Source of the DNA: Rhizobium tropici CIAT 899 | GTDB taxonomy: Bacteria; Pseudomonadota; Alphaproteobacteria; Rhizobiales; Rhizobiaceae | DNA: 64,000 nt | NCBI RefSeq assembly: GCF_000330885.1 | Contig: NC_020059.1 | Location: 3,505,501 to 3,569,500, forward strand | Direction of reading: 5' to 3' | Shown: one piece after another, positions 3,328 through 18,271 of the stretch | Layout: each line of letters starts with the position of its first letter | Position numbering within the stretch: position 1 is the first letter of the stretch | Program-made: the position numbers and the translations under genes | The notes under the pieces: generated by a model | Told to the model about the DNA's origin: nothing | Database searches by the model: none | The model's input: the letters and a program-made list of their open reading frames with translations, nothing else

Positions 3328-4179
3328 GTGTTAAATGTTGGGACATCTTTTTCCGCCCGGCTGTCTGTGCTGGCCGGAACGGGGCTGCTGGCAGCGTGTA
3401 TAGCCGGTATGTTTCCCACCTCATCCAAAGCGGCGGATGACACCTCTAAATCCTCATCCGATACCTGGGTTGTCACGCTTGGTGCGACGGTTGAATACGG
3501 CCCGAGCTATGAGGGATCGAAGCATTATACCTTCGGCGCCCTGCCCTCATTCGACATCCATCGTTTGGGTGAGGCGCAGGAATACAGCGCTCCGGACGAT
3601 AATTTCGATTATCAGCTCTTCGATCTCGGCGGCGTCGAAATCGGCCCCGTTGTGGGGCTACGGGACGACCGCTTCGACATCAACAACCTGCACCTGCAAA
3701 GCCAGCGCAGGGTGCGCTGGAACTTCGATGCGGGCGGCTTTGCCCAATATTGGCTGATGGACAATCGGCTCCGGTTCCGCACGGAAATACGCCAGTCACT
3801 TTGGGGCGGCGATGGACTGGTGGGCGATTTCGCTCTCGACTGGTTCCAGCCGCTCGGAGACAAATGGCTCCTGTCCGCTGGCCCTCGCCTGTCGATGGCA
3901 AATTCAGTCTATATGCGCACCAACTTCGGCATCTCGGAGAGTGAAGCTGCGAGACATGGCCATATCAATGCCTTCGATGCCGGCGCCGGCGTGAAATCGG
4001 TCGGCTTCACCGTGGCGGCGACCTATACGATCTCGCCGGAATGGAGCGTGCAGGTCTATGAGAAATATAACCGCCTGGTAGGCGACGCCGCCGATAGCCC
4101 GATCACCTCGCGCTTCGGCTCACCCAACCAGAACATCATCGGCTTTACGCTCAACAGAACCTTCAACGTCAAGTTTTGA
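3328..4179 (+). CDS. MipA/OmpV family outer membrane protein
   Basis: A 283-residue secreted protein. The N-terminus has a hydrophobic signal segment (LSVLAGTGLLAACIAGMF) ending near SSKAADD. The mature part begins WVVTLGATVEYGPSYEGS and continues as alternating aromatic/polar strands, ending in an aromatic-rich NRTFNVKF, the usual terminal beta-strand of an outer membrane barrel. The family scaffolds murein enzymes or acts as a small porin. The last 60 bp overlap the 3' end of the cyclopropane synthase gene on the other strand, an unusually long tail-to-tail overlap. A start downstream of 3328 would shorten the signal peptide and is less likely. Confidence 0.85.
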   Translation: MLNVGTSFSARLSVLAGTGLLAACIAGMFPTSSKAADDTSKSSSDTWVVTLGATVEYGPSYEGSKHYTFGALPSFDIHRLGEAQEYSAPDDNFDYQLFDLGGVEIGPVVGLRDDRFDINNLHLQSQRRVRWNFDAGGFAQYWLMDNRLRFRTEIRQSLWGGDGLVGDFALDWFQPLGDKWLLSAGPRLSMANSVYMRTNFGISESEAARHGHINAFDAGAGVKSVGFTVAATYTISPEWSVQVYEKYNRLVGDAADSPITSRFGSPNQNIIGFTLNRTFNVKF

Positions 4180-5460
4180 AGCGCTCTTCGCTTCATTCTC
4201 GGCGATATAGTTGCGCGTCAGCGGAATGATGTCATTTCGCTTGGCGATCTGGATCTGGAAGACGACGAGATCCTCGTAGCGGAAGGCGGCCTCCGCCGTC
4301 GAAAGATAATATTCCCACATGCGGCAGAAGCGCTCGTCATAGAGCTTGGCGGCGTCGTCCCAACGCGCCATGAAACGCTCCCGCCACGCCTCCAGCGTCT
4401 TGGCATAATGCAGCCGCAGCACCTCGACATCGGTGATGGCAAGCCCCGCCGCCTCGATCTCCGGCACGATCTCGGACAGCGCCGGAATATAGCCGCCGGG
4501 AAAGATGTATTTGTCGAGCCACGGCGTCGTGAAGCCGGGCGTCGCCGAACAGCCGATGGTGTGCAGCACCATGACGCCGTCATCCTCCAGAAGCTCAGCG
4601 CATTTGCGGAAGAAGGTGCGATAGGACGCCAGCCCGACATGCTCGAACATGCCGACGGAAACGATCCTGTCGAAGCGGCCGGTCAGGCTGCGGTAATCCC
4701 TCAGCGCGAACTGAACCTCCGCCGGTGTTCCGCCGGCTCTCTCGGCAACCCGCTTCGACGCGTATTCATGCTGCTCTTCCGACAGGGTCACGCCGAGCAC
4801 GTAACCGCCCGGCGCATGTTCGGCCATATGCAGCGCGAGGCCGCCCCAGCCGCAGCCGATATCGAGGATGCTGTTGTTCGGTTCGATCAAAAGCTTGGCG
4901 GCGAGATGCCGCTTCTTGGCAATCTGCGCATCGTCAAGCGATTGATCTGCATGCTCGAAATAGGCACAGGAATATTGCCGGTCCGGATCGAGGAAGAGCT
5001 CGTAAAGCCTACCATCGAGATCGTAGTGATGCGCGACATTCGCCTTCGATCGCCCCGGTAGGTTGCGATGGCGGAAAATCCGCAGCTTCGTCCTGATATG
5101 ATCGATGATGCGGGCAATGAGGGGGTGGGTACTGTTCTGCCCTTCGCGCAGCATCATCGCCACGAAATCGTAGAGCGTACCCTGCTCCACGATGAAGCGG
5201 CCATCCATGAAGAGCTCGCCAAGCCGCTTATCGGCATCGATGAGGAGCGCCCATTCGGCGCGGTCGTCGGTGAAACGGACATGGACCGGCTTGCCGGTGC
5301 CGTCGCCGAAGGTCAGCACACGGCCGCTGGCCGTGGTCACGGTCAATGCGCCGCGCGTCACGATCGAAGACAGCGCGCGCTTCACGCACCAGTCCACAAC
5401 GCCGGAGAAAAGGACATTGCTCTTGCCCGTGGAGCGGTTTTCAGCTGGAGAACCGGTCAT
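4120..5460 (-). CDS. cfa: Cyclopropane-fatty-acyl-phospholipid synthase family methyltransferase
   Basis: A 446-residue cytosolic, membrane-associated enzyme that transfers a methylene group from S-adenosylmethionine to the double bond of an acyl chain. The N-terminal ~120 residues form the CFA/SCP2-like lipid-binding part. The YELFLDPDRQYSCAYF segment and the SAM motif ILDIGCGWGGLALH are typical, and the C-terminal FQIQIAKR region matches the family. It is the last gene of the nine-gene train; its ATG overlaps the stop of the preceding SMR-like gene by 4 bp (ATGA). Its stop lies inside the MipA gene on the opposite strand. Being co-transcribed with a desaturase suggests it modifies the unsaturated product. 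Relatives that add methyl rather than methylene groups exist. Confidence 0.9.
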   Translation of the reverse strand: MTGSPAENRSTGKSNVLFSGVVDWCVKRALSSIVTRGALTVTTASGRVLTFGDGTGKPVHVRFTDDRAEWALLIDADKRLGELFMDGRFIVEQGTLYDFVAMMLREGQNSTHPLIARIIDHIRTKLRIFRHRNLPGRSKANVAHHYDLDGRLYELFLDPDRQYSCAYFEHADQSLDDAQIAKKRHLAAKLLIEPNNSILDIGCGWGGLALHMAEHAPGGYVLGVTLSEEQHEYASKRVAERAGGTPAEVQFALRDYRSLTGRFDRIVSVGMFEHVGLASYRTFFRKCAELLEDDGVMVLHTIGCSATPGFTTPWLDKYIFPGGYIPALSEIVPEIEAAGLAITDVEVLRLHYAKTLEAWRERFMARWDDAAKLYDERFCRMWEYYLSTAEAAFRYEDLVVFQIQIAKRNDIIPLTRNYIAENEAKSASKLDVEGSVERKADDVLVG

Positions 5461-5885
5461 CTTCCATCCTTACCGGCGCTGCTGCGCAGCCCGTCATGCT
5501 TGACATGCCAATCGTCGCCCTCTTCCGGCGCCGCATTGGCACCGGCGATCAACCAGACCCCCAGGAGGATCAGACCGCTGCCGACCACCTGCAGGGCGAC
5601 GACACGCTCGCCGAAGACGAACCAGCCTGTCGCGATGATCAGCACGTAGCTAATGCCGGAAAGCGGGAAGGCGCGGCTGAGATCGAGTTCCGCAAGCACG
5701 TTCATCCAGATGAAGAAGGTCACGATCTCGACGGCGATAGCTGCCAATATCCAGTATGAGGAGAGTGCTTGCCATAGCCAGCTTTCCGTGCGCCCAGCGT
5801 TCATCTGCTCGGCTCCGAGCTTGATGAAGAATTGGAACAGGGTATTCATTACCGGCACGGCAAGCCAGGAAAGACGCATCGGCAT
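5457..5885 (-). CDS. SMR/EamA-like small membrane protein (second of two in the cluster)
   Basis: 142 residues with four predicted membrane helices, plus a polar C-terminal tail rich in Asp, Lys and Gly. The pattern WFVFGERVVALQVVGSGLILLGVWL at the end of the membrane part is that of EmrE-like and ArnE/ArnF-like proteins. Such proteins work as homo- or heterodimers to export cations or flip lipid-linked sugars. The start codon overlaps the stop of the FemAB-like gene by one base, and its own stop overlaps the cfa start by 4 bp. Together with the SMR gene at 8688-9041 it could form an ArnEF-like heterodimer. The transported molecule is unknown. Confidence 0.75.
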   Translation of the reverse strand: MPMRLSWLAVPVMNTLFQFFIKLGAEQMNAGRTESWLWQALSSYWILAAIAVEIVTFFIWMNVLAELDLSRAFPLSGISYVLIIATGWFVFGERVVALQVVGSGLILLGVWLIAGANAAPEEGDDWHVKHDGLRSSAGKDGR

Positions 5886-7033
5886 TACAAATCCGCCTCA
5901 TCTGTCGAGAACAGCGGCGATACCAGTCGCAACAGTCCCTGAAGGAAAGGATTGCGGTGGCGGAAATACATCGCATTGGCCGTCAGCTTGCTGCCGAGCC
6001 GCACCTTGTTTTCATAATAGGCCTGACCGCTCTGGTACCGGCTCAAGCCATTATCGAGGCAATAGCGCAGATTGGTGAACCAGCTCAGGAAGTAGAGATT
6101 GTAGGGCCGGCCCTTTTCGCCATCCATGCAGAAGAACTTGTCGATCGCCACGCGCTCGTCATGGACAATCAGATTGGCGGCCATGAGCTTGTCTTCGACA
6201 AAATAGAAGGCGCAGAACGCGCGGCCGCTCATCCGGTCGAGAATGCCCTGGAAATAGGCAGGCGTCAGTTCTTCGAACTGCCATTCGCTGCGATTGCGCG
6301 TGTCATGATAGAGCGCCATGACCTCAGGCAGGAATTCGCCGAAATCCGTCCGGATCTCGACCCTGACCTGTTCGAAGGATTTCATCTTGCGGCGCATGTC
6401 CTTGCGCGTACCGGACGAAAGCCTGGCGAGATATTCGTCGACCGTCTTGAAATCGATGTCGAGCCAGGCCGTCGGAAGGCCACCGATCGTGGCATAGCCG
6501 CGCGCGGCAAACAGCGCGCCGAATTCGGCCGATGTCGGCTCGGGAATATCCTTGAGGCCGATCAGCCCGCAACACTCAGCCGCGGCGACCTGCTCGAAAA
6601 AGGACAGCATCTCGGCCAGCAAGACGCCGCGTCGCTCGCCATCGACGTCGGGATGAAAGCCGATCGCCCCCGTTTCCGTGCAGGGTGAACCCAGGCAGGC
6701 AAGGCGCAGCTTCAGGAACTTCGGAAAATAGCGCTGGACCTTGCGCATGGACCGACGCAGGAAGCCTTCCTCCAGCGTGGTATCGAGGGCATAAAGGCAG
6801 AGAAAGGCCGGCATGGCTGCGCTGACCCGTCCGCCTTCCGTGACGGTGATGTAGCGCCATTCAAACCCCTCAAGACCAGCTTCTTCGATCGCCAGCAGGC
6901 AATCATAGTCCTCGACTTGACCCGGGAAACACGCATTCCACGCATCGCGGCCGATGGCGCGGATGCTGACATGAACTTCGGCCACCGGATCGCCCGTCGG
7001 CTGCGGCGGGACTTTAAGCAGCGGCTGCGACAT
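5885..7033 (-). CDS. FemAB/GNAT-like acyltransferase (DUF482 type)
   Basis: About 382 residues from the chosen start. The protein resembles the peptidoglycan-FemAB-like family PF04339, which has a double GNAT fold and transfers acyl or aminoacyl groups. Typical segments are GFEWRYITV, the GLPTAWLDIDFKTVDEYLARLSSGTRKDMRRK region, FYFVEDKLMAANLIVHDE, and the late YLSWFTNLRYCLDNGLSRYQSGQAYYENKVRLGSK block, read here in pieces. I chose the ATG at 7033 because GAGG lies about 6 bases upstream; an upstream start at 7093 has no support. It overlaps the alpha/beta hydrolase gene by 20 bp. The acceptor and donor are not known. In this cluster it is the best candidate for joining an acyl chain to an amine. 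Confidence 0.75.
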   Translation of the reverse strand: MSQPLLKVPPQPTGDPVAEVHVSIRAIGRDAWNACFPGQVEDYDCLLAIEEAGLEGFEWRYITVTEGGRVSAAMPAFLCLYALDTTLEEGFLRRSMRKVQRYFPKFLKLRLACLGSPCTETGAIGFHPDVDGERRGVLLAEMLSFFEQVAAAECCGLIGLKDIPEPTSAEFGALFAARGYATIGGLPTAWLDIDFKTVDEYLARLSSGTRKDMRRKMKSFEQVRVEIRTDFGEFLPEVMALYHDTRNRSEWQFEELTPAYFQGILDRMSGRAFCAFYFVEDKLMAANLIVHDERVAIDKFFCMDGEKGRPYNLYFLSWFTNLRYCLDNGLSRYQSGQAYYENKVRLGSKLTANAMYFRHRNPFLQGLLRLVSPLFSTDEADL

Positions 7034-7829
7034 GACGCGCCTCGAAGAAATCGGCCGTGAAATCGGCCACCTGACGGTGCTGCCGGTCGACATGGATCAT
7101 GTGATAGCTGTCCGTGATCCATTTCAGTTCGTGCGGAGCACCGATATGCTCGGAAATGTAACGGGCATGCTTCGGGCTGGCGAGATCGTCATCCTCGGCA
7201 TGCAGGATCAGCGTCGGCGTCTGCATTTGCGGCAACAGGCTGCGAAGAGCCTTGCCCAGCCGGTGCATCTCGACCAGACCCTTGCCCGGGAATTTTTCCA
7301 AAACGCCTTCGCTCGCCATGCCTTCGATCAACCGGCGCATGCGCTCGTCCTTTATACCGAGCGAGGTTGTCTCGCTGAAGTTCAGCCGGTCGAGGAATGG
7401 AACGCGCGACAGCCAGCCGATCTGGGAGGCCAGCAGCGGATAGTAGAAGGGAACGTCCCAGCCGTCATAACTGAAGCAGGGAGAATAGATCGCCACCGCG
7501 CTGATGGTCTTCTTCTGCTGTTCGGCGGCCAGCATCGCCAGCTTGCCACCAACGCAGATGCCAGCCGCAAAGACTTCCTGCGTTCTGGATGCAAGAAATT
7601 CCGATGCGCTGACGACAGAGGCTAGCCAGTCTTCCCAGCTCGTTCCGCGCAGGGTCTTCGCATCGACGCCATGGCCTGCGAGCAACGGCGCATAGATGCT
7701 GTAGCCCCTGCGGTTGAGGTGACGGGCCACCAGCTTCATTTCGGCCGGCGCTCCCGTCAGACCGTGAATCAGAAGAACGCCTTTGCCGTTTGAGCCCTCC
7801 ATGAAGAAGCTCAATTCGTCAGCTTTCAT
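7014..7829 (-). CDS. Alpha/beta hydrolase with Cys nucleophile elbow
   Basis: 271 residues from the ATG at 7829, which has GGAGCTCTCT upstream. It has an Est30/monoglyceride-lipase-like fold with oxyanion segment HGLTG (22-26) and acid in HAEDDD (around 214). The histidine is in SYHMIHVD (H243). The nucleophile elbow reads GICVGG, putting Cys92 where most family members have Ser, as in dienelactone hydrolase (GYCLGG). A Cys-Asp-His triad can hydrolyse esters or thioesters, or transfer acyl groups. The gene overlaps the desaturase gene by 11 bp and the FemAB-like gene by 20 bp, so it belongs to the nine-gene train. It is cytosolic, with no signal peptide. Confidence 0.85.
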   Translation of the reverse strand: MKADELSFFMEGSNGKGVLLIHGLTGAPAEMKLVARHLNRRGYSIYAPLLAGHGVDAKTLRGTSWEDWLASVVSASEFLASRTQEVFAAGICVGGKLAMLAAEQQKKTISAVAIYSPCFSYDGWDVPFYYPLLASQIGWLSRVPFLDRLNFSETTSLGIKDERMRRLIEGMASEGVLEKFPGKGLVEMHRLGKALRSLLPQMQTPTLILHAEDDDLASPKHARYISEHIGAPHELKWITDSYHMIHVDRQHRQVADFTADFFEARHVAAAA

Positions 7830-8691
7830 GAGAGAGCTCCGACGGCCGGTTTTCCTTGGCCATAAAGCCAAGAGCATGGCAGGTGCTGATCACATGCGTG
7901 CCATTCTTTTCCTGCTCGTCCTTGATCTGCTCATGCAGCGCCTGGAGTTTCGTCCAGTGGGTCCGCGGGCGATAATGGTGCTCCGCATGATAGCCGTTGC
8001 CGAACCAGAGCCAGTTGTAGAAGGATTTGTGGCTCGAGACGCCCCAGGCGATCGGCTCGTCCGGATCGCCGTTCAGATGCTCGTAATAGCCGTTCAGCGA
8101 CGACAGGCAGTTGCCGATATAATAGAACGGCACGAAGAACAGCACCGCTTTCCAATCGTAGACAAGCGCGAGCGCGGCAAGTCCCAGGAAGAAGTAGAGT
8201 TCGAACCGTCCCCAGGCCGCGTCGAAGGGGCGGTTGCGGGCGATCGCCTTGTGGATGTCGCCGAGGCTGTCGCGGAAGAAGCTCAGAAACGTGTAGGACC
8301 AGACGTTTTCCGGCTGGCCGTCGCGGCCATGGCGATAGATCGACAACAGATCGACAGTGTCGCCTTTCTCATCCGGCCTGTCGCTGTTGCCTGAATGGTG
8401 GCGCATATGCACCCAATGATAATAGGTCTGCGAGAAACCGATCGCGACCGACTCCAGCAGGCTGAAACCGTAGTTCATCCAGCGCGGCTTGAAATAGGGC
8501 GTATGGATGAAATTGTGCGATATGCTGTTGATGTTCCAGGAGATCGAAACGGCGTAAAGACAGCCGAGAACGGCGGAGAGCCAAAGCGGCCGGCTTTCGA
8601 AGCCGACGATCAGATAGACATCGAAGGCGAGATGGGCGACAGCGGCCAGAACCGGTGCCAGATCCCATCGGGTGTGTGCAAAGATTTTCAT
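7819..8691 (-). CDS. Membrane fatty acid desaturase
   Basis: 290 residues from the ATG at 8691, which overlaps the SMR stop as ATGA. A longer open frame upstream to 8967 is only the SMR gene read in another frame. The enzyme has several membrane helices and the three His clusters of di-iron desaturases and hydroxylases: HNFIHTPYF near residue 80, HMRHH, and HAEHHYRP near the C-terminus. It would introduce a double bond (or hydroxyl) into an acyl chain at the inner membrane using O2 and reduced ferredoxin or cytochrome. With the downstream cyclopropane synthase it suggests an acyl chain that is first desaturated and then cyclopropanated. Regioselectivity cannot be predicted. Confidence 0.9.
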   Translation of the reverse strand: MKIFAHTRWDLAPVLAAVAHLAFDVYLIVGFESRPLWLSAVLGCLYAVSISWNINSISHNFIHTPYFKPRWMNYGFSLLESVAIGFSQTYYHWVHMRHHSGNSDRPDEKGDTVDLLSIYRHGRDGQPENVWSYTFLSFFRDSLGDIHKAIARNRPFDAAWGRFELYFFLGLAALALVYDWKAVLFFVPFYYIGNCLSSLNGYYEHLNGDPDEPIAWGVSSHKSFYNWLWFGNGYHAEHHYRPRTHWTKLQALHEQIKDEQEKNGTHVISTCHALGFMAKENRPSELSHES

Positions 8692-9041
8692 AGTCCTGTA
8701 ACTCCCACGCAAGCCACACCGGCGGTGACGAGGAACACGCCCGTCGCGTGGCGCAGGTTGATGTTTTCCTTGAAGATGACGGCGCCGGCGAGCACGATAA
8801 CCACATAGCTTAGCGCCATCAGCGGGAAGGCGATGGTCAGGGGGACGCGCTCGAGAACGGCCGTCCAGGCGAAAAGCTCCACGGCCCAAAACAGAATGCC
8901 GAGCCAGGTGATCGGCTTGGCCAGCGCCGAAAGCAGGGCGCCTTCGCCGGCCGTTTGCTTGAAGCAAACTTCACGGGCCGTCTCCGCGAGTATGCAGAAT
9001 AGGATCAGTCCGAGCATGGGAAGTGTCAGGCTGCCAGTCAT
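8688..9041 (-). CDS. SMR/EamA-like small membrane protein (first of two in the cluster)
   Basis: 117 residues with four predicted helices. The early CILAETAREVCFKQT segment carries the membrane Glu in a helix-1 context, as in EmrE (Glu14), and the end VTAGVACVGVTGL is SMR-like. It overlaps both neighbours by 4 bp (arginase-like gene before, desaturase after), which indicates tight translational coupling. ArnE/ArnF-type pairs flip undecaprenyl-linked aminosugars, whereas single EmrE or GdX proteins export cationic compounds or guanidinium. An exported amine or guanidino product fits the adjacent arginase-fold gene, but this is inference. Confidence 0.8.
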   Translation of the reverse strand: MTGSLTLPMLGLILFCILAETAREVCFKQTAGEGALLSALAKPITWLGILFWAVELFAWTAVLERVPLTIAFPLMALSYVVIVLAGAVIFKENINLRHATGVFLVTAGVACVGVTGL

Positions 9042-9991
9042 TCCATGTACTCCGCCAGCACCTCAAGCAGCGCATGATTGGCTGCACTGTTGATGTTTCT
9101 CATCGTTTCGGCACCCTGGCGCATACGCGGCTGATCGATGAAGATCTCCGCGCGCTTCATGAATTGGGTCCGAAGACTGCCAGCATAACTCGGGGTCGAA
9201 TAATCCCCGATGACATCGGCGCCGATGATGCGGTGACGGCTGCCGATTTCGCTGATGAGGGAGAGGAGATAGGGCAGCCGCATGCGGCCCTGATCCCAAT
9301 TGGTAACGGCATCGTCGGCGGCCAGCACGTCCTTGTCGATCGTTACGTAGACCGCTTCGGTGCGAATACGGCTGAGCATGTGATCGATGAAATTTTCCTC
9401 GCCGATTTCGGCGATCGACTTCCAGTGCAGCGCACCCCGTTCCTGTCGATAGCTGGCGCCATTGCCGTAATCGGCCAGGACGCGGCTCGGCGGATGTTCG
9501 TAAGGGTAGAGTTCCAGCTTGCCGTCGCCGAGCCAGTGCAGATTGGCCCCCTTGCGCTCCGGGCTACGAAGATCATGGCTGCAGACGCCGATCGTGATGA
9601 CCTTCTGGATGCTGGGATTGGCAAGTGCGCTGTTGACCCAGGAGCCGCAGTGCAGTCCGCCGTCGAACTTGACCCAATCCGGATGATTGTCGAAATGGAT
9701 CAGCGTGGCCGCACTGGACTGCCGCTCGAGCGCGTCGTCAAGCAGCAGGGCGGTGATATGATGGAAATCACCGGAGCCCATGAAGCACAATTGCGGCGTC
9801 TTGCCGGTCGCAGGCCTGTTCTTGACGATCTCGCGGCTGAGATCGTCAAGCGCGCTCTGTTTGCTCCAAAGCCGAACCTGCTGGCCGGCGTTCTTGCCGA
9901 AATACTGGTACGCGCCTGCGAATTTGCACGCGCGTACGAAGTCGGGCTGCAACTCCAAAGCATCATCGAGATGAAGAAGCAGCAGTTGCAC
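9038..9991 (-). CDS. Arginase/ureohydrolase-fold protein
   Basis: 317 residues. Three metal-binding blocks of the arginase superfamily can be aligned: GSGDFHH (in place of GGDHS), HFDNHPDW (in place of DAHxDxN) and TIDKDVLAADDA (SxDxDxxDP type). The binuclear Mn site is therefore probably intact, although each block is atypical. The reaction would be hydrolysis of a guanidino or related C-N bond (arginine, agmatine, guanidinobutyrate) or of an acylated amine, as in histone deacetylase relatives. It lies 4 bp downstream of the class III aminotransferase and overlaps the SMR gene. The divergent motifs mean the substrate should not be assumed to be arginine. Confidence 0.75.
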   Translation of the reverse strand: MQLLLLHLDDALELQPDFVRACKFAGAYQYFGKNAGQQVRLWSKQSALDDLSREIVKNRPATGKTPQLCFMGSGDFHHITALLLDDALERQSSAATLIHFDNHPDWVKFDGGLHCGSWVNSALANPSIQKVITIGVCSHDLRSPERKGANLHWLGDGKLELYPYEHPPSRVLADYGNGASYRQERGALHWKSIAEIGEENFIDHMLSRIRTEAVYVTIDKDVLAADDAVTNWDQGRMRLPYLLSLISEIGSRHRIIGADVIGDYSTPSYAGSLRTQFMKRAEIFIDQPRMRQGAETMRNINSAANHALLEVLAEYME

Positions 9992-9995
9992 CGTC

Positions 9996-11414
9996 TTATC
10001 TCCGGGCCGCGCGCGTCAGAAGCTGATCGAGAAGCGCAAGCGCCAGATCGATCTCTTCGCGGGTGATGAGCAGGTTCGGAGCAAACGTGATGACGTTCTT
10101 GTGGTAGCCGCCGACGTCAAGCACGAGGCCGTAGGTCCTGCCGCCGACTTGAAGGTCGCCCTTCATGCCTTCGTCGCACATCCAGTCCAACGTCGCCTTG
10201 TCCGGCGTGTAGCTGTCGTCCTTGCAGATTTCCATGCGCAGGGCGAGACCGAGACCATCGACCTCGCCGACGGTGGCGTGGCGCTTCTGCAGCTGCTTCA
10301 GCCCGTCGAGGAAATGCGCGCCCTTTTCCATGATCGCAGCGCCGAAGTCCTGCTCCTCCAGCATCTTCATCGTTTCCAGCGCAACGGCAGTCCCCATCGG
10401 GTTGCTGGCGAAGGTCGAATGCGTGGAGCCGGGCGGGAAAATCTCCGGATTGATCATCTCTTCGCGAGCCCAGACGCCGGAGAGCGGGTTGAGGCCGTTG
10501 GTGATCGCCTTGCCGAAGATCAGCGCATCCGGCGAAACGCCGAAATGCTCGATCGACCAGAGCTTGCCGGTGCGGTAGACGCCCATCTGGATTTCGTCGA
10601 CGACGAGCAGGATGCCGTGATCATCGAGCACCTTCTTCAGTTCGACGAAGAAGTTCATCGGCGGAATGACATAGCCGCCGGTGCCTTGAATCGGCTCGAT
10701 GTAGAAGGCCGCATATTCGGACTTGCCGGCCTTCGGGTCCCAGACACCGTTATATTCGCTCTCGAACAAGCGGGCGAACTTCTGGACGCAATAATGTCCG
10801 TATTCTTCCTTCGACATGCCCTTCGGACCGCGGAAGTAATAGGGAAACTCAACGAACTGCGCGCGATCGCCGAAATGGCCGTAGCGGCGGCGATAGCGAT
10901 AGCTCGAGGTGATCGCCGAAGCGCCGAGCGTGCGGCCGTGATAGCCGCCTTCGAAGGCGAACATCAGGCTCTTGCCGCCGGTGTAATTGCGCACGAGCTT
11001 CAGTGAATCCTCGACGGCCTGCGAGCCGCCGACGTTGAAGTGGACACGGCCCTTATGGCCGAACTTGCGCTCGGCATCCTGGGCGATCATCGCCGCAAGC
11101 TCCACCTTTTCGCGGTGCAGATATTGCGAGGCGACCTGCGGGAGACGGTCGAGCTGGCGATGCGCGGCCTCGTTCAGGCGCTCGTTGCGATAGCCGAAAT
11201 TGACGGCGGAATACCACATCTGCAGATCGAGGAACGGCGTCCCGGTCCGGTCGTAGACATAGGAGCCTTCGCATTCTTCGAAGAATTTCGGCTTGTCCAT
11301 ATAGTGAACCGTGTCGCCATGGGAGCAATAGATCTCCTCAAGCGCGCGCAATTCCTCTTCGGAGCGGACGGACTCGGTCTCACCGCTGAAGGCTTCGGCT
11401 ACATTCGTTTTCAT
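9996..11414 (-). CDS. Class III PLP-dependent aminotransferase
   Basis: 472 residues, PLP fold type I. Visible elements are GGSQAVEDSLKL (phosphate-binding loop, about 129-140), GGYHGRTLGA (156-165), VVDEIQMGV with Asp273 that contacts the pyridine nitrogen, and FGKAITNGLNPLSG with the Schiff-base Lys302. The family moves amino groups between omega-amino acids, diamines or ornithine derivatives and oxo acids. It sits 20 bp downstream of the HAD phosphatase and 4 bp upstream of the arginase-like gene, so it probably makes or uses an amine precursor in the same pathway. Glutamate-1-semialdehyde mutase is unlikely, since that gene is normally a solitary housekeeping gene. Confidence 0.88.
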   Translation of the reverse strand: MKTNVAEAFSGETESVRSEEELRALEEIYCSHGDTVHYMDKPKFFEECEGSYVYDRTGTPFLDLQMWYSAVNFGYRNERLNEAAHRQLDRLPQVASQYLHREKVELAAMIAQDAERKFGHKGRVHFNVGGSQAVEDSLKLVRNYTGGKSLMFAFEGGYHGRTLGASAITSSYRYRRRYGHFGDRAQFVEFPYYFRGPKGMSKEEYGHYCVQKFARLFESEYNGVWDPKAGKSEYAAFYIEPIQGTGGYVIPPMNFFVELKKVLDDHGILLVVDEIQMGVYRTGKLWSIEHFGVSPDALIFGKAITNGLNPLSGVWAREEMINPEIFPPGSTHSTFASNPMGTAVALETMKMLEEQDFGAAIMEKGAHFLDGLKQLQKRHATVGEVDGLGLALRMEICKDDSYTPDKATLDWMCDEGMKGDLQVGGRTYGLVLDVGGYHKNVITFAPNLLITREEIDLALALLDQLLTRAARR

Positions 11415-11434
11415 TCAATGCCTCTCGGTCTGTT

Positions 11435-12118
11435 TTACGCTGTCTTGAAATGCGGCAGCGTACGGGAGCGTCGCTCGACGCTCGGGAGAACGGCTTCCAT
11501 CTTTGGAAGCAGGTCGGAAAAATCTGCGAAACCGACATAGGGAATGCCGTTTTCCTCGCAGTAATCGACAAGCTTAGCCTTGGCGAAAACGAGGTCGACC
11601 TTGTCGGAAACGCAGAAGTCGCTTCGCCCGTCGCCGATGTAGACCTGAAGGTCATTGCTATCGACGACGCGGCATTTGCAGACACCGGCGCCGGATACGC
11701 AGCCGGTTGCCGTAAACGGCGGAAACAGCGAATAGGATTCGCGGCCCTGGGAAACGCTGCAGGTCAGCACATTGGCGACGATCGGCAGGCCCTCGATGCC
11801 ATGACGCGCCAGAATGCGCCGGATAAAATAATCCACACCATCGCTGACGATCGTGACAGGCAATTCGCCGCGACGGCAGAAGGACAGGAAAGCCTCAAAG
11901 CCGGGATCGATCGCCAGCGTATCGAGAAACCGATCGAGCTCGCCTCTGTTTGCTTCGATGAGAGCGATCTGCCGGCGCATGCATTCGCCGGAGCCGATCT
12001 GCCCCTGCTTCCACAACTGCTCGATATCTTCCCACTCGGAACCGGCGAAACGGGTTAGCACCATATCCGTCGCGTCTTCGATGGATATGGTTCCATCAAA
12101 ATCGCAAAACACCTGCAT
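11435..12118 (-). CDS. HAD-superfamily (MtnX/PSP-like) phosphatase
   Basis: 227 residues, HAD subfamily IB. Motif I is CDFDGT with Asp6 and Asp8, motif II is VSDG, and motif III/IV is GDGRSD. The cap is short, like phosphoserine phosphatase and MtnX. Four Cys residues cluster in GCVSGAGVCKC, which suggests a metal or structural site not usual for the family. It is the first gene of the nine-gene train; 103 bp separate it from the histidine kinase gene, and that gap holds a direct repeat that may be a response-regulator site. It would remove phosphate from a pathway intermediate. A methionine-salvage role is unlikely, as no mtn genes are nearby. Confidence 0.82.
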   Translation of the reverse strand: MQVFCDFDGTISIEDATDMVLTRFAGSEWEDIEQLWKQGQIGSGECMRRQIALIEANRGELDRFLDTLAIDPGFEAFLSFCRRGELPVTIVSDGVDYFIRRILARHGIEGLPIVANVLTCSVSQGRESYSLFPPFTATGCVSGAGVCKCRVVDSNDLQVYIGDGRSDFCVSDKVDLVFAKAKLVDYCEENGIPYVGFADFSDLLPKMEAVLPSVERRSRTLPHFKTA

Positions 12119-12178
12119 GAAATACCCCTTCGCCTTGTCTTAAGTTGCGTCTAACAACCTCAGATGAGCCGGGCATGA

Positions 12179-12199
12179 GCGGAAAATGATGCGAAAATG
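12179..12199. promoter_or_regulatory. Candidate response-regulator direct repeat upstream of nine-gene cluster
   Basis: Read on the minus strand, CATTTTCGC (12199-12191) and CATTTTCCGC (12188-12179) form a direct repeat with an 11-bp period, about one helical turn. OmpR/PhoB-type regulators commonly bind such repeats. It lies 60-80 bp upstream of the HAD start and just downstream of the histidine kinase stop. Binding is not shown. Confidence 0.4.
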
Positions 12200-12221
12200 A
12201 AAAGCGACGAGGCCGTGAGTT

Positions 12222-13598
12222 TTACCTGAGCGGCAATCTCAAATCGACCTGGAGACCGCTACCCAGACGGGATGTGGAGAGATCCACAGTTGCCGAGAGA
12301 CGATCAGCGGTGTCCGCGACGATCGCAAGCCCAAGCCCAGCCCCTTCGGTATGCAGCGTATGAAGGCGGTAGAAGCGTTGGAACACCGCTTCCCTTTCAT
12401 GCGGCGGAATGCCGGGGCCGCTGTCGCTGATGGAAATGCAGGCAAAGCCATCCTCCGAGGCGATAGAAACTTTGATTTCCCCTCCCGCAGGCGTGTATTT
12501 GATCGCATTGTCGAGCAGATTGGTGACGAGCATGCGCAGCAGCGCCTCATCGGTTCTGACCTGGATCGCCTCATCGCCTTCCAGCACGACGTCGAGTTCG
12601 CGGCTGGTGATGATATTGCCGAGTTCGGCGATGAGCGACGCCATCCAGTGATAAAGCTCTATCGAGGTGAGATTAAGGGGGTGGTGACTGACCCTGGCGA
12701 GCCGCAGCAGCTGTTCGATAAGATGAATGGTGCGGTTGTTGCTGGCCACGAGATCGGAAACGATCGCGTGCCGCTCCTGATCACTTTCGCTGTTTTCGAG
12801 CATCCGCAAAAGCAGCTTCACGCTCGCCTGGGGCGTACGCAGCTGATGCGCGGCAAGATCGGAGAAGCGCCGCTCCAGCGTCAGCGACTGGCCGAGCTTT
12901 TCCAGCAGCTGGTTGATCGACCGGCCAAGCGGCAGCAGATCGCGCGGCAGCTCTTCGACCGGGATAGCCGAGAGATCGTCAGGCGATCTTGTCCGGATCT
13001 GCCGCACCAGCCCATGAATCGTGCGCAGGCCGCTATTGATGCCGAGCCAGATGAGAAAGCCGATGACCGGCACCAGCATCAGCAGCGGAAAAAACAGATT
13101 GAGAAGAATGTTGGAAACGAGCGTTTCGCGAAGCGCGATCTTTTCGCCGAGTTCGATCACGATAGTCGTGTTCGGAATCGGCAGCGAATAGACGCGCCAT
13201 TCGTCGCCGCCATAGGTCAGCGTGGTAAAACCCACCTTCTGCTGCGGGACGTCAGAGAGGAAGGCGGTGCTGCTGTAGAAGCGGATATTGCCGTCGACCC
13301 AGGCGCGGAACATATGCGCATCGGCATAGTCATCAGCGTCTTCGTTGAAAGCCAGCTGATTGTCCATGTTGAAGTCGATATCGTCGATCTGCTTGGCGCC
13401 ATGGTCCGGATTCTTCTCCAGCGGCCGGCGCAGCAGGCTCCAGATCACGTTGGCATCGTCGATGAGCTGGGCATCGTAGATATTGTTGATCTCCCGCGTC
13501 GCGCTGTTGAAGGCGAAGGCGGCGATCACGACGATCGTCACCACGACGACAGGCGCGATGCGCAGAAACAGCTTGCGGGTAAGCGTGGAATTGTTCAT
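12222..13598 (-). CDS. Sensor histidine kinase (TctE/QseC-like)
   Basis: 458 residues: an N-terminal membrane helix (about 12-30), a periplasmic sensor region of ~125 residues, a second helix (about 162-188), a short HAMP-like linker, the dimerisation/phosphoacceptor helix with H251 in LAAHQLRTPQ, and an HATPase_c domain with N-box LLDNAIKYTP and G-box ISDSGPGIPP. The sensor region is acidic (DADDYADAH) and could bind cations or cationic peptides; that is a guess. Its ATG overlaps the regulator stop by 4 bp. The pair precedes the nine-gene cluster on the same strand, so it is the likely controller. Confidence 0.92.
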   Translation of the reverse strand: MNNSTLTRKLFLRIAPVVVVTIVVIAAFAFNSATREINNIYDAQLIDDANVIWSLLRRPLEKNPDHGAKQIDDIDFNMDNQLAFNEDADDYADAHMFRAWVDGNIRFYSSTAFLSDVPQQKVGFTTLTYGGDEWRVYSLPIPNTTIVIELGEKIALRETLVSNILLNLFFPLLMLVPVIGFLIWLGINSGLRTIHGLVRQIRTRSPDDLSAIPVEELPRDLLPLGRSINQLLEKLGQSLTLERRFSDLAAHQLRTPQASVKLLLRMLENSESDQERHAIVSDLVASNNRTIHLIEQLLRLARVSHHPLNLTSIELYHWMASLIAELGNIITSRELDVVLEGDEAIQVRTDEALLRMLVTNLLDNAIKYTPAGGEIKVSIASEDGFACISISDSGPGIPPHEREAVFQRFYRLHTLHTEGAGLGLAIVADTADRLSATVDLSTSRLGSGLQVDLRLPLR

Positions 13599-14251
13599 CG
13601 CTCGATCATATAGCCGACGCCGCGGATCGACTTGATGAAATCGGTGCCGAGCTTCTTGCGCAGATTGTAGATCGTCACTTCGATCGTATTGCTCTCGACG
13701 GTGTTTTCCGCATCATAGAGCGCATATTCGATATCGTTCTTTGTCACGTACCGGCCGCTGCGCTCCATGAGCAGCTTCAGGAGATGAAATTCTTTCGCCG
13801 TGGTATGAACCTGCACATTATCCTTGCGAGCCACCATGGCCGAGGGGTCGACCTCCACGTCGCCGCAGCGGATGACGCTTTCGGTCCGCCCGTCACGCCG
13901 GCGGATGAGCGCGCGCAGCCTCGCCAGCAGCTCGTCGAGATCGAACGGCTTGACCAGATAGTCGTCGGCGCCCTCATCCAGACCTTCGACCTTCTGGCGC
14001 ACGGAATCCATCGCCGTCAGCAGCAGCACGGGAACGGAATTTCCCCGCTGCCGGATGCGACGCAACACCTCCATGCCGCTTAGCTGCGGCAGATTGATAT
14101 CGAGCACGATCGCCGCAAAATGCGAATGCGCCGCCGCTTCGAGGCCGGATTCGCCGTCGCGCATCCAGTCGACCCCGTAGGCATGCTTTTCCAGCGCCTT
14201 CTTCAGCGATGAGCCGAGGATATTGTCGTCTTCAACAAGCAGAACGCGCAC
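13595..14251 (-). CDS. OmpR-family response regulator
   Basis: About 218 residues from a GTG at 14251, with GAGG six bases upstream. The upstream ATG at 14311 would add 20 residues foreign to the family. The receiver domain starts VRVLLVEDDN, the phosphoacceptor is Asp51 in VLDINLP, and the conserved Thr/Lys are in LLLTA and LVKPFD. The C-terminal winged helix contains AKEFHLLKLLM and ends with NLRKKLG and IRGVGYMIER. It is translationally coupled to the sensor kinase. Likely targets are its own operon and the downstream nine genes. Confidence 0.93.
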   Translation of the reverse strand: MRVLLVEDDNILGSSLKKALEKHAYGVDWMRDGESGLEAAAHSHFAAIVLDINLPQLSGMEVLRRIRQRGNSVPVLLLTAMDSVRQKVEGLDEGADDYLVKPFDLDELLARLRALIRRRDGRTESVIRCGDVEVDPSAMVARKDNVQVHTTAKEFHLLKLLMERSGRYVTKNDIEYALYDAENTVESNTIEVTIYNLRKKLGTDFIKSIRGVGYMIER

Positions 14252-14413
14252 GACCGACCTCACTTGACGGTGTATTCCATAGCGGATGTGAGCCGCAATT
14301 GGAGCGGCCATGTGGCAAAGCTATGACGGATATTTTCCGCCTGGCAAGAGCTTCGGGAAGAGACGGCATTCCTAGCGGTGGCTCGAAGGCACGGTTTTGC
14401 GCCGAATACGGCC

Positions 14414-15848: not shown

Positions 15849-17300
15849 CTAGGCTGCCGTAATGCCGCTCGCAGCGGCATCCTTGTGTATCGCCCGCAGC
15901 TTTCGCATGGACGCTTTCAGCACGTCGAAGATCCGGGGATCGGCCGATTGCGCGACGTTGAACCGCATGAAGCGGCCGGCCGTCTCCGACAGGCTGAAAA
16001 CATTGCCGGGCGCGAGGATGACCCCTTCCGCGAGGCAAGCACGGGCAAGGTCGGCGGCATCAAGCCCTTCCGGAAGCCTGCACCAGAGAAACATGCCCGC
16101 ATGCGGCTTGAGCCATGGGGTGATACCGATCGCTTCCAGCCGGGCCGCAACCTCATCCATCGCCTTCGCAAGCCGGACGCGCAGCGCCTCGACATGCTTG
16201 CGATAACTTCCATCCTTCAGCGCGAGATAGATGAGCTCGGCCGACACTTGCCCGCAGCTGAAGCTGCTGGCGACCTTGAGATCGACGAGATCGTCGATCC
16301 ACTCGGGCTTCGCGGCGATGAAGCCGCAGCGAATGGAGGCCGAAAGCGTTTTCGAGAAACTGCCGATATGGATCACCCGGTCCAGCCCGTCATAGGCGGC
16401 CAGACGCGGCGCCGGCACCTGCTCGAAATCGGCGAAAATATCATCCTCGATGATGATGAGCCCGGAAGCATCCGCCAGCTTCAGCAACCGATGCGCCGTG
16501 ACGGGGGAAAGCGCCGCACCGGTCGGATTGTGAATGGCGGAGTTGGTGATGTAGAGCCGCGGCTTGTGCCGTTCGAGCACCTGGCCGAACAGCTCGACAT
16601 CCGGCCCCATCGGCGTGAAAGGCACGGAAACGACCTTGGCGCGATGCGCGCGCAGCAGTGCATGGAAATTGAAGTAGCAGGGATCGTCGACCACGACGGT
16701 ATCGCCGGGTTCCAGCAGGAACCGGCAGAGAAGATCGATCGCCTGCGTGCCCGATTCCGTCAGCATGATCTGATCCGGAGGCACGTTGATTCCATGTTCG
16801 CCCAGGCGCCGGGCCAGCAGCTGCCGCAATGGCGGCAGGCCGAGCGGTGTCCCGTAATTCGCAAGCACTCCGATATCGCCGCGCGCAAGTGTGCGCATCG
16901 CCTTGCGCAAGGCCGCCTGCGGCAGCCATGAAGGCGGCAGCCAGCCGCAGCCCGGTTTCATGGCATCGTCGCCGACTTCGAGCGATTGCCGCGAGATCCA
17001 CAGCGGATCGACATTGCGGCCCGATTTCTCTCCCGTTTCGGAGAGCGATAGGGGCGGCAGCGGCCCGCAGACATAGAAGCCGGATCCCGGCCGTGAGCGG
17101 ATCACCCCCTCGGCCGCAAGCCGTTCATAGGCCTCCACAACGGTCGAAACCGACACTCGCATCGTCTTGGAAAAGCTGCGCACGGAAGGAAGCCGCGCGC
17201 CGGGTACGAGGCTGCGCGTAGCGATGCGCTCTGATATCGCCGCCATCACGCCTTCGATCCGGGTCGTGCCGGCAGCGCCGGTCATCGAGAGACTATCCAT
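15849..17300 (-). CDS. MocR-type GntR/aminotransferase regulator
   Basis: About 483 residues from the ATG at 17300. Starts at 17321 and 17408 are possible but would place the operator repeat inside the gene. The N-terminal GntR winged helix contains ARLPSVRSFSKTMRVSVSTV and RSRPGSGFYV. A fold type I aminotransferase-like domain follows, with NYGTPLG, DDPCYFNFHALL and the PLP lysine in HIGSFSKTLSASIR. MocR proteins sense PLP or amino acid adducts and usually control a neighbouring gene. The divergent EamA transporter and the exact direct repeat between them fit that model. Confidence 0.93.
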   Translation of the reverse strand: MDSLSMTGAAGTTRIEGVMAAISERIATRSLVPGARLPSVRSFSKTMRVSVSTVVEAYERLAAEGVIRSRPGSGFYVCGPLPPLSLSETGEKSGRNVDPLWISRQSLEVGDDAMKPGCGWLPPSWLPQAALRKAMRTLARGDIGVLANYGTPLGLPPLRQLLARRLGEHGINVPPDQIMLTESGTQAIDLLCRFLLEPGDTVVVDDPCYFNFHALLRAHRAKVVSVPFTPMGPDVELFGQVLERHKPRLYITNSAIHNPTGAALSPVTAHRLLKLADASGLIIIEDDIFADFEQVPAPRLAAYDGLDRVIHIGSFSKTLSASIRCGFIAAKPEWIDDLVDLKVASSFSCGQVSAELIYLALKDGSYRKHVEALRVRLAKAMDEVAARLEAIGITPWLKPHAGMFLWCRLPEGLDAADLARACLAEGVILAPGNVFSLSETAGRFMRFNVAQSADPRIFDVLKASMRKLRAIHKDAAASGITAA

Positions 17301-17302
17301 CC

Positions 17303-17348
17303 GTACTGCACCTTCAACCATAACAGTTCGCATAGATTGTACTGCACC
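17303..17348. promoter_or_regulatory. Direct-repeat operator for the MocR regulator (candidate)
   Basis: GTACTGCACC occurs twice in the same orientation, at 17303-17312 and 17339-17348, 36 bp apart start to start, between the divergent MocR and EamA genes. GabR, TauR and PdxR (MocR class) bind spaced direct repeats, so arrangement and position fit. Confidence 0.6.
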
Positions 17349-17407
17349 GTCTCTGGTTCCGCCAGACAAATGCGCCGATACCGCGAAAGCCAATAGGAGC
17401 ATGCGCA

Positions 17408-18271
17408 ATGGACAAAACGACGACGGGATGGATCTACGGTTTGACGGGAGTGGTGATCTTCAGCGGCTCGCTGCCGGCAACGCGCGTAGCCGTCATGGAT
17501 TTCGACCCTCTGTTCCTGACCGTTGCCCGAGCCGTAATCGCCGGCCTTCTGGGTCTTGGCCTGTTGCTCGCTTTTCGCGAGAAGCGCCCGGCTCGCGGCG
17601 ACATCGTCTCGCTGACGATCATCGCCCTCGGCTGCGTCGTCGGCTTTCCGCTCTTGACGGCACTGGCGCTGAAGCATGTCACGTCAGCCCACTCGATCGT
17701 CTTCATCGGACTGCTGCCGTTGGCGACCGCCGTCTTCGGCGTACTGCGCGGCGGCGAGCGGCCCCGTCCGGCCTTCTGGGTATTCTCCATCCTCGGCAGC
17801 GCGCTGGTGTGCAGCTATGCGCTGGCACAGGGCCTATCGGCCTCGCCGGTCGGCGATCTCCTGATGCTTGCAGCCGTGATCGTCTGTGGCCTTGGCTATG
17901 CCGAAGGTGCCGTTCTCTCACGCCGGCTGGGCGGCTGGCAGGTCATCTGCTGGGCTCTCGTGCTGTCCCTGCCCGTCACCATCGCGCTCTGCTTCATGAC
18001 CATGCCGCACAGCATTGACGGTATCGGCGGCCCTGCCTGGCTCGGCCTCATCTATGTCTCGCTCTTCAGCATGCTGATCGGCTTCATCTTCTGGTATCGC
18101 GGGCTCGCCCAGGGTGGCATAGCCGCCGTCGGCCAGCTGCAATTCCTGCAGCCTTTCTTCGGCTTCGCGCTCGCCGCGGCCCTTCTCAAGGAAAGCGTCA
18201 GCTGGTCGATGCTCGTCGTAACCCTCGCCGTCGTCGCCTGCGTCGCCGGAGCCAGAAAATTCGCACATTGA
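17408..18271 (+). CDS. DMT/EamA-family transporter
   Basis: 287 residues with ten predicted membrane helices in two EamA repeats. It begins with a helix starting GWIYGLTGVVIFSGSLPATR and ends in a short positively charged tail. Family members export amino acids, their analogues or other small metabolites across the inner membrane. It is divergent from the MocR regulator across a 107-bp promoter with the direct repeat. MocR-EamA pairs are common, and the substrate is likely an amine or amino acid, but this is unproven. Confidence 0.9.
   Translation: MDKTTTGWIYGLTGVVIFSGSLPATRVAVMDFDPLFLTVARAVIAGLLGLGLLLAFREKRPARGDIVSLTIIALGCVVGFPLLTALALKHVTSAHSIVFIGLLPLATAVFGVLRGGERPRPAFWVFSILGSALVCSYALAQGLSASPVGDLLMLAAVIVCGLGYAEGAVLSRRLGGWQVICWALVLSLPVTIALCFMTMPHSIDGIGGPAWLGLIYVSLFSMLIGFIFWYRGLAQGGIAAVGQLQFLQPFFGFALAAALLKESVSWSMLVVTLAVVACVAGARKFAH

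Follow-up and report, generated by a model that had tools for sequence, protein, structure and literature searches.

A conserved gene cluster of Rhizobium tropici CIAT 899 with a predicted role in stress-controlled aminolipid synthesis

Organization of the gene cluster

The 6.69 Mb genome of Rhizobium tropici CIAT 899 (now Martinezella tropici) is organized in four contigs. The window analysed here is a stretch of 64,000 bp of contig 1 (NC_020059.1, positions 3,505,501 to 3,569,500). It carries nine consecutive open reading frames (ORFs) that run from position 12118 to 4120 on the minus strand in the order HAD-AT3-ARG-SMR1-DES-ABH-FEM-SMR2-CFA (Table 1), an arrangement that an earlier note on this DNA had correctly described as an operon and had read as a pathway that makes and exports a lipidated amine. 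Measured with the most plausible start codons, HAD and AT3 are separated by 20 bp and AT3 and ARG by 4 bp, while the following genes overlap by 4 (ARG/SMR1), 4 (SMR1/DES), 11 (DES/ABH), 20 (ABH/FEM), 1 (FEM/SMR2) and 4 bp (SMR2/CFA). No gap exceeds 20 bp, as the note had stated, but a 4 bp spacing is found at four of the eight junctions and not at seven. The genes of a response regulator (RR), whose true start is probably ~60 bases inside the annotated ORF, and of a sensor histidine kinase lie upstream on the operon strand. The kinase gene ends 103 bp before HAD, and the interval holds a conserved promoter element. This two-component system, the promoter and the neighbouring MipA gene had not been part of the earlier description.

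Table 1. Features of the gene cluster and of its surroundings (window coordinates).
Feature	Position	Strand	Description
MipA/OmpV	3328..4179	+	outer-membrane protein gene, convergent with CFA, downstream of the operon
CFA	4120..5460	-	cyclopropane fatty acid synthase (Brucella-type model); optional
SMR2	5457..5885	-	second small membrane protein, ArnF/EamA-like; core
FEM	5885..7033	-	FemAB-like transferase, predicted Fem/MprF-type (tandem GNAT) fold; core
ABH	7014..7829	-	alpha/beta hydrolase, monoacylglycerol-lipase-like, Cys nucleophile; core
DES	7819..8691	-	membrane fatty acid desaturase family protein; optional
SMR1	8688..9041	-	ArnE/ArnF-like small membrane protein; core
ARG	9038..9991	-	ureohydrolase-like metalloenzyme, two-metal motifs kept; core
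AT3	9996..11414	-	class III pyridoxal phosphate (PLP) enzyme, highly conserved; core
HAD	11435..12118	-	MtnX-like HAD-IB phosphatase; core
Promoter element	12150..12202	-	four TCA repeats 11 bp apart, then -10-like GTTAGA; conserved
Kinase	12222..13598	-	sensor histidine kinase; 2CSK_N, HisKA, HATPase_c; acidic NEDADDYADAH in sensor domain
RR	13595..14311	-	OmpR family response regulator; best models QseB and PmrA, both below cut-off

Protein families

Assignments were made with Pfam and NCBIfam models against their cut-offs and agree with the families named in the earlier note, except that the two small membrane proteins resemble ArnE, ArnF and EamA proteins and match SMR efflux models weakly (~20 bits). 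HAD belongs to the MtnX-like HAD-IB subfamily (TIGR01489, 106.1 bits, cut-off 81.55) and stays below the cut-off of the NCBIfam MtnX equivalog models. Six cysteines of HAD are kept in at least 97% of 86 homologues; they could bind a metal or form disulphides. AT3 is a class III aminotransferase (PF00202, Aminotran_3; 250.8 bits, above cut-off), but none of the 25 named models displayed reaches its own cut-off. Its K302, presumably the PLP lysine as in the rest of the family, is conserved among homologues, while position 443 is Thr and not the Arg of the four displayed relatives that cover it. ARG is a member of the ureohydrolase superfamily (Pfam Arginase, 34.6 bits, cut-off 22) whose DNHPD and DKD motifs, present in 36 of 36 homologues, align with DAHPD and DVD of arginase; it scores 28.3 bits against a cut-off of 174 with the agmatinase model TIGR01230. 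The families of AT3 and ARG include metabolic members, and the two proteins could serve ordinary polyamine or arginine metabolism encoded next to lipid genes by chance. This is very unlikely given the Thr at position 443 of AT3 and the co-occurrence with membrane and acyl genes even in distant clusters (see below).

SMR1 (49.5 and 41.7 bits) and SMR2 (21.2 and 43.2 bits) do not reach the ArnE and ArnF equivalog cut-offs (92 and 99 bits, respectively); with the EamA model SMR1 is just under and SMR2 just over the cut-off. DES matches FA_desaturase (99 bits) and ABH matches Hydrolase_4 (81.5 bits). The nucleophile motif of ABH, GICVGG, has Cys in 80 of 87 homologues and Ser in the other seven, which bears out its earlier designation as a Cys-type hydrolase. 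FEM exceeds the gathering score of FemAB_like (PF04339; 52.9 bits versus 27) and also matches Acetyltransf_6. CFA, one of five strong cyclopropane synthase matches in the genome, narrowly passes the cut-off of NF053839 (600.8 versus 600 bits). The RR gives 207.8 and 216.7 bits with the NCBIfam PmrA and QseB equivalogs (cut-offs 330 and 345), and MipA/OmpV is above the cut-off of PF06629 (139.7 bits).

Conservation of the gene set

Gene neighbourhoods were compared in 88 loci: 80 picked by FEM similarity among one-genome-per-species contigs, most of them from close Rhizobiaceae, seven plasmid loci picked by FEM or ARG similarity, and the window. All seven core genes (HAD, AT3, ARG, SMR1, ABH, FEM, SMR2) are found within 9 kb of FEM in 82 loci, in two of which (L076, L083) the gene counted as AT3 codes for a 23-24% identical PLP enzyme on the opposite strand. 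The six exceptions are one locus cut by the contig end (L022), four (L059, L075, L080, L082) in which a single gene is missing at the chosen thresholds, and a Bartonella locus (L086) with AT3, FEM and ARG alone in the stretch read. DES and CFA, which the earlier note had named in its heading, are optional (66 and 49 of the 88 loci, respectively). Note that a DES-before-SMR1 order in four loci is an artefact of stop-to-stop ORF starts, that correlations of gene presence used 51 loci, and that single-linkage grouping fused SMR2 with CFA and was not used for these two.

Genome samples assembled independently of FEM were searched as well, with scoring limited to the best candidates of each genome. 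Among 297 genomes of the same family, strong matches to the ARG profile (E <1e-50) occur in 11; a threshold of E <=0.001 raises this to 25, the additional 14 being short weak matches. AT3 matches of 70-100% identity are found in the identical 11 genomes and in no other, on the same contig and strand as ARG and less than 2 kb from it. In a phylum sample of 398 genomes the 16 genomes with ARG (E <=1e-10) are all nested within the 25 with AT3 (E <=1e-120), and in a class sample ARG was found in 15 of 385 genomes, three matches being strong and a further one, in G175, a fragment with a stop. Strong matches thus occur in few sampled genomes and the distribution of the module is patchy. It is also carried on plasmids, and Pleomorphomonas oryzae has two copies (L072, L079). 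The gene set travels as a block; scattered homologues in related genomes, which would have spoken against the earlier proposal, are not what is seen. The AT3 homologues of genomes G731 and G774 carry one or two in-frame stops; these copies are possibly decaying, or the stops are assembly errors.

Control of the operon

The kinase gene is directly upstream of HAD in 69 of the 86 loci that have HAD, and the MipA gene is found in 68 of them; the RR gene family is present in 72 loci, some members being paralogues. The promoter element consists of four TCA (sometimes TAA) repeats mostly followed by a -10-like TAAA or TAGA; in the 33 of 71 sequences displayed it is 78-85 bases away from the start of HAD, on the upstream side. 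The pattern occurs in 71 of 86 HAD-upstream regions, namely all 69 with an adjacent kinase gene plus L050 and L060, and is missing from 15, of which 14 belong to more distant clusters. In L060 the kinase gene lies one gene further upstream; the intervening gene (4485-5549) reads like a family 2 glycosyltransferase. The pattern was drawn up after reading 23 of the regions. It is found in two of 66,000 shuffled regions, which preserve base composition alone, and in 73 of 17,008 pieces of 250 bases from all loci, the promoters themselves included. A scan of the whole genome allowing up to three mismatches matches this site alone. OmpR-type regulators bind half-sites spaced by 11 bp. Because the element accompanies the kinase-adjacent loci, is unique in the genome and has this spacing, the two-component system most likely controls the operon, which may be its sole target of this kind in the genome. 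The same element was also considered, and rejected, as a means of RR autoregulation and of mipA co-regulation: the repeats are not seen by eye upstream of either gene and the genome has a single site. The acid-sensitive RR mutant JG2646 was considered too, but its tag (RS05450) is distant and it therefore probably affects another system.

The acidic stretch of the kinase sensor domain is present in 12 of 13 diverse sequences displayed. Over 71 sequences the region has a median net charge of -6 in 50 residues (range -9 to 2), as expected for a domain that would detect cations or cationic peptides. According to a study on P. aeruginosa, MipA binds polymyxins and is a proposed co-sensor of the ParS kinase, and most of the mipA loci screened have a two-component system next to mipA (PMC10936184). 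In that system MipBA-ParRS controls the efflux pump MexXY-OprA, whereas here the MipA gene and the two-component system accompany a biosynthetic operon.

A histidine kinase (tested) is encoded directly after FEM in L078, and a kinase-sized gene holds this position in L080 and L083. On a Roseomonas mucosa plasmid (L082, 12109-14994) the FEM homologue is annotated as a single long protein with a kinase-length extension, followed by a sigma-54 response regulator.

Predicted fold of FEM

The predicted model of FEM has a transferase domain with a Fem/MprF-type fold that resembles FemX and MprF; these neighbours come from a VIA-align comparison (Foldseek), in which absence of a family from the list does not exclude it. 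K343, L346 and G347, which we take to resemble the FemX lysine motif, are invariant in an alignment of 35 of the 88 FEM sequences. Because of this fold FEM, an acyltransferase in the earlier note, may transfer an aminoacyl rather than a fatty acyl group. A domain scan at E <=10 listed FemAB_like and a GNAT domain alone; PF09924 (LPG_synthase_C) was not among the matches, though HMMER filters may drop weak ones. Against PDB sequences a single-sequence query gave no match and a profile query weak, chance-like matches. A direct kinship of FEM with LpiA was rejected, none being detected by sequence (hhalign 0.3%).

FEM could alternatively be a true FemABX protein that adds amino acids to a lipid-linked cell-wall precursor, the cluster then serving modification of peptidoglycan or of a surface peptide. 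We regard this as quite improbable, since the domain scan gave the two domains above and nothing else, the partners of FEM are lipid-type enzymes, and no cell-wall gene was noticed among the annotated neighbours inspected.

Variant clusters

Variants of the gene set are found in Pseudomonas, Xanthomonas, Roseomonas and Bartonella. Sets with the same FEM type lie on an X. sacchari plasmid and in eight stretches from genomes of the phylum (L114-L121), five of which (L115, L118-L121) have the full complement of HAD, AT3, FEM, ARG, ABH and the SMR pair, the other three being incomplete as read. Variable in these clusters are a DegT aminotransferase, an acyl carrier protein (ACP), a ketosynthase (KS) and an ABC-HlyD-TolC exporter. 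The X. sacchari FEM has close named relatives in Xanthomonas, Lysobacter, Rhodanobacter and Luteibacter.

Nine phylum-sample genomes have AT3 without an ARG match. Eight were read (G774 was left out), three of them as short contigs (L137-L139) beyond whose end ARG could lie. Seven of the eight stretches encode HAD, AT3 and ABH within ~4 kb, which is the smallest recurring unit among them; three of the seven have a ketosynthase (two of these also ACP), one has the SMR pair and the exporter, and two contain a FEM-like stretch. In L136 (9430-11732) a 54% identical AT3 adjoins a sulfotransferase gene, its usual partners being replaced, and probably belongs to a different system. Added to HAD-AT3-ABH are fatty-acyl enzymes (ACP and KS, or DES and CFA in rhizobia) and membrane-crossing proteins. 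This recurrent association points to a lipid or a lipidated amine more than to common amino acid metabolism, and the ACP and ketosynthase genes of some relatives strengthen the acylated-amine reading. The Bartonella AT3-FEM-ARG arrangement deviates from the unit. In L086 and L127, which have identical copies of both neighbouring genes and probably represent one strain, it lies beside an MBOAT O-acyltransferase and an AlgX-like SGNH protein, which suggests acylation of an exported product.

The exporter bears on the main rival explanation, in which the product is a small amphiphilic molecule, either an N-acyl amine or a short lipopeptide, that is secreted through the SMR pair and, in relatives, through ABC-HlyD-TolC, with the two-component system timing its production. 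Possible though rather unlikely, it has to contend with the absence of a tripartite exporter beside 95 of 105 loci, with small membrane proteins that most resemble lipid flippase subunits, and with the MipA linkage, which suggests envelope defence; MipA is found in 69 of the 105 loci and the exporter in 10, never both. A link to surfactant work in Agrobacterium vitis was dropped because the literature search gave nothing relevant.

The cluster can also be compared with the arn operon (4-amino-4-deoxy-L-arabinose, Ara4N; PmrAB), with which it shares paired ArnE/ArnF-like small membrane proteins, an aminotransferase and a PmrA-like regulator. An Arn-like pathway would build an amino sugar on undecaprenyl phosphate, flip it by the SMR pair and attach it to lipid A or to some other glycan of the surface. 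It would fit this scheme that 11 of 105 loci encode a DegT/DnrJ aminotransferase and that the Roseomonas cluster has an undecaprenyl-diphosphate phosphatase gene. However, rhizobial loci have no DegT match, the nine genes include fatty-acyl and not nucleotide-sugar enzymes and lack a glycosyltransferase, and DES, CFA, ACP and KS indicate fatty acyl chains. No ArnB above cut-off was found in the genome (top score 73 of 631 bits, with ArnT and ArnC outside the search), which speaks against classical Ara4N synthesis, and the wider Arn-like pathway is improbable. Downstream of one A. fabrum plasmid cluster, the single one of the 105 loci that eptA adjoins, lie eptA and a diacylglycerol kinase gene.

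Predicted function

We consider, with a probability of about one half, that this is a dedicated module for the synthesis and flipping of an aminolipid under the control of envelope stress, the product being predicted. The proposal builds on gene content, conservation, co-occurrence, the promoter element, the linkage to the kinase and MipA genes and the fold predicted for FEM; from these we infer the signal, every substrate, the order of steps, the flipping and the protection. It retains the central idea of the earlier note, a lipidated amine that is made and exported. MipA in the outer membrane and the acidic sensor kinase would detect a cationic or envelope-damaging signal, and the QseB/PmrA-like regulator would bind the four-repeat promoter and switch the operon on. 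HAD would supply or trim a phosphorylated precursor and AT3 would form an amine, either directly on a fatty-acyl building block or to be used for one. FEM would join to it an amino acid taken from tRNA or else an acyl group supplied by ACP or CoA, ARG would hydrolyse part of the polar group and ABH would move or remove an acyl chain, with DES and CFA tailoring the chain in rhizobia. The ArnE/ArnF-like pair would finally flip the lipid across the membrane, and in the outer leaflet its positive charge would protect the envelope. Two observations weigh against this proposal: the link of some relatives to an ABC-HlyD-TolC exporter, and the lack of induction at pH 4.5 of CIAT 899 cfa2, which we infer to be the operon CFA. 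The latter also argues against acid as the signal.

A more specific and doubtful version is a split analogue of MprF, in which FEM would add an amino acid to the AT3-made amine lipid, in the simplest case arginine delivered by Arg-tRNA, and ARG would convert the arginyl into an ornithinyl group, although ornithine has no tRNA; the ArnE/ArnF-like pair would flip the cationic lipid under control of the MipA-linked cationic-peptide sensor. This would define a new class of aminoacylated membrane lipid. MprF and LpiA-AtvA comprise an aminoacyl-phosphatidylglycerol synthase, a flippase and a hydrolase without detectable sequence similarity to FEM; here, in contrast, a soluble transferase is encoded with separate small membrane proteins and with additional PLP, HAD and ureohydrolase-like enzymes. 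The genome carries an LpiA gene elsewhere, followed by a gene read as AtvA-like.

Known amine lipid routes include ornithine-lipid synthesis (OlsB/OlsA/OlsF) and the N-acyl amino acid synthases with a dedicated ACP (FeeM type). They share with the cluster the logic of a GNAT-fold N-acyltransferase, an ACP partner in some relatives and an amine lipid product, but belong to different protein families, and we know of none that carries AT3, HAD, ARG and a flippase pair. New in the proposed aminolipid module is the recurrent gene set, combined with a sensor and a promoter of its own and an adjacent MipA gene. Full-text searches of open-licence PMC papers turned up no account of the cluster (subscription papers and preprints were outside the search); a study of acid and nutrient responses in R. 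leguminosarum with arginase and GNAT hits names other genes in the passages found. Should the proposal be correct, an undescribed amine-lipid surface route, distinct from Arn, EptA, MprF and ornithine lipids and regulated at least in rhizobia, would be common to proteobacteria as diverse as root symbionts and isolates from skin and bats. Rhizobia contain unidentified aminolipids, which the route could help to explain together with resistance to cationic peptides.

Other genes of the window

A PAP2-family phosphatase is encoded near the MipA gene (2198-2944), and its gene family recurs in 18 loci. Further upstream of the operon (15849-18271), a MocR-like regulator on the minus strand is divergent from an EamA-type transporter on the plus strand, as judged by sequence reading.

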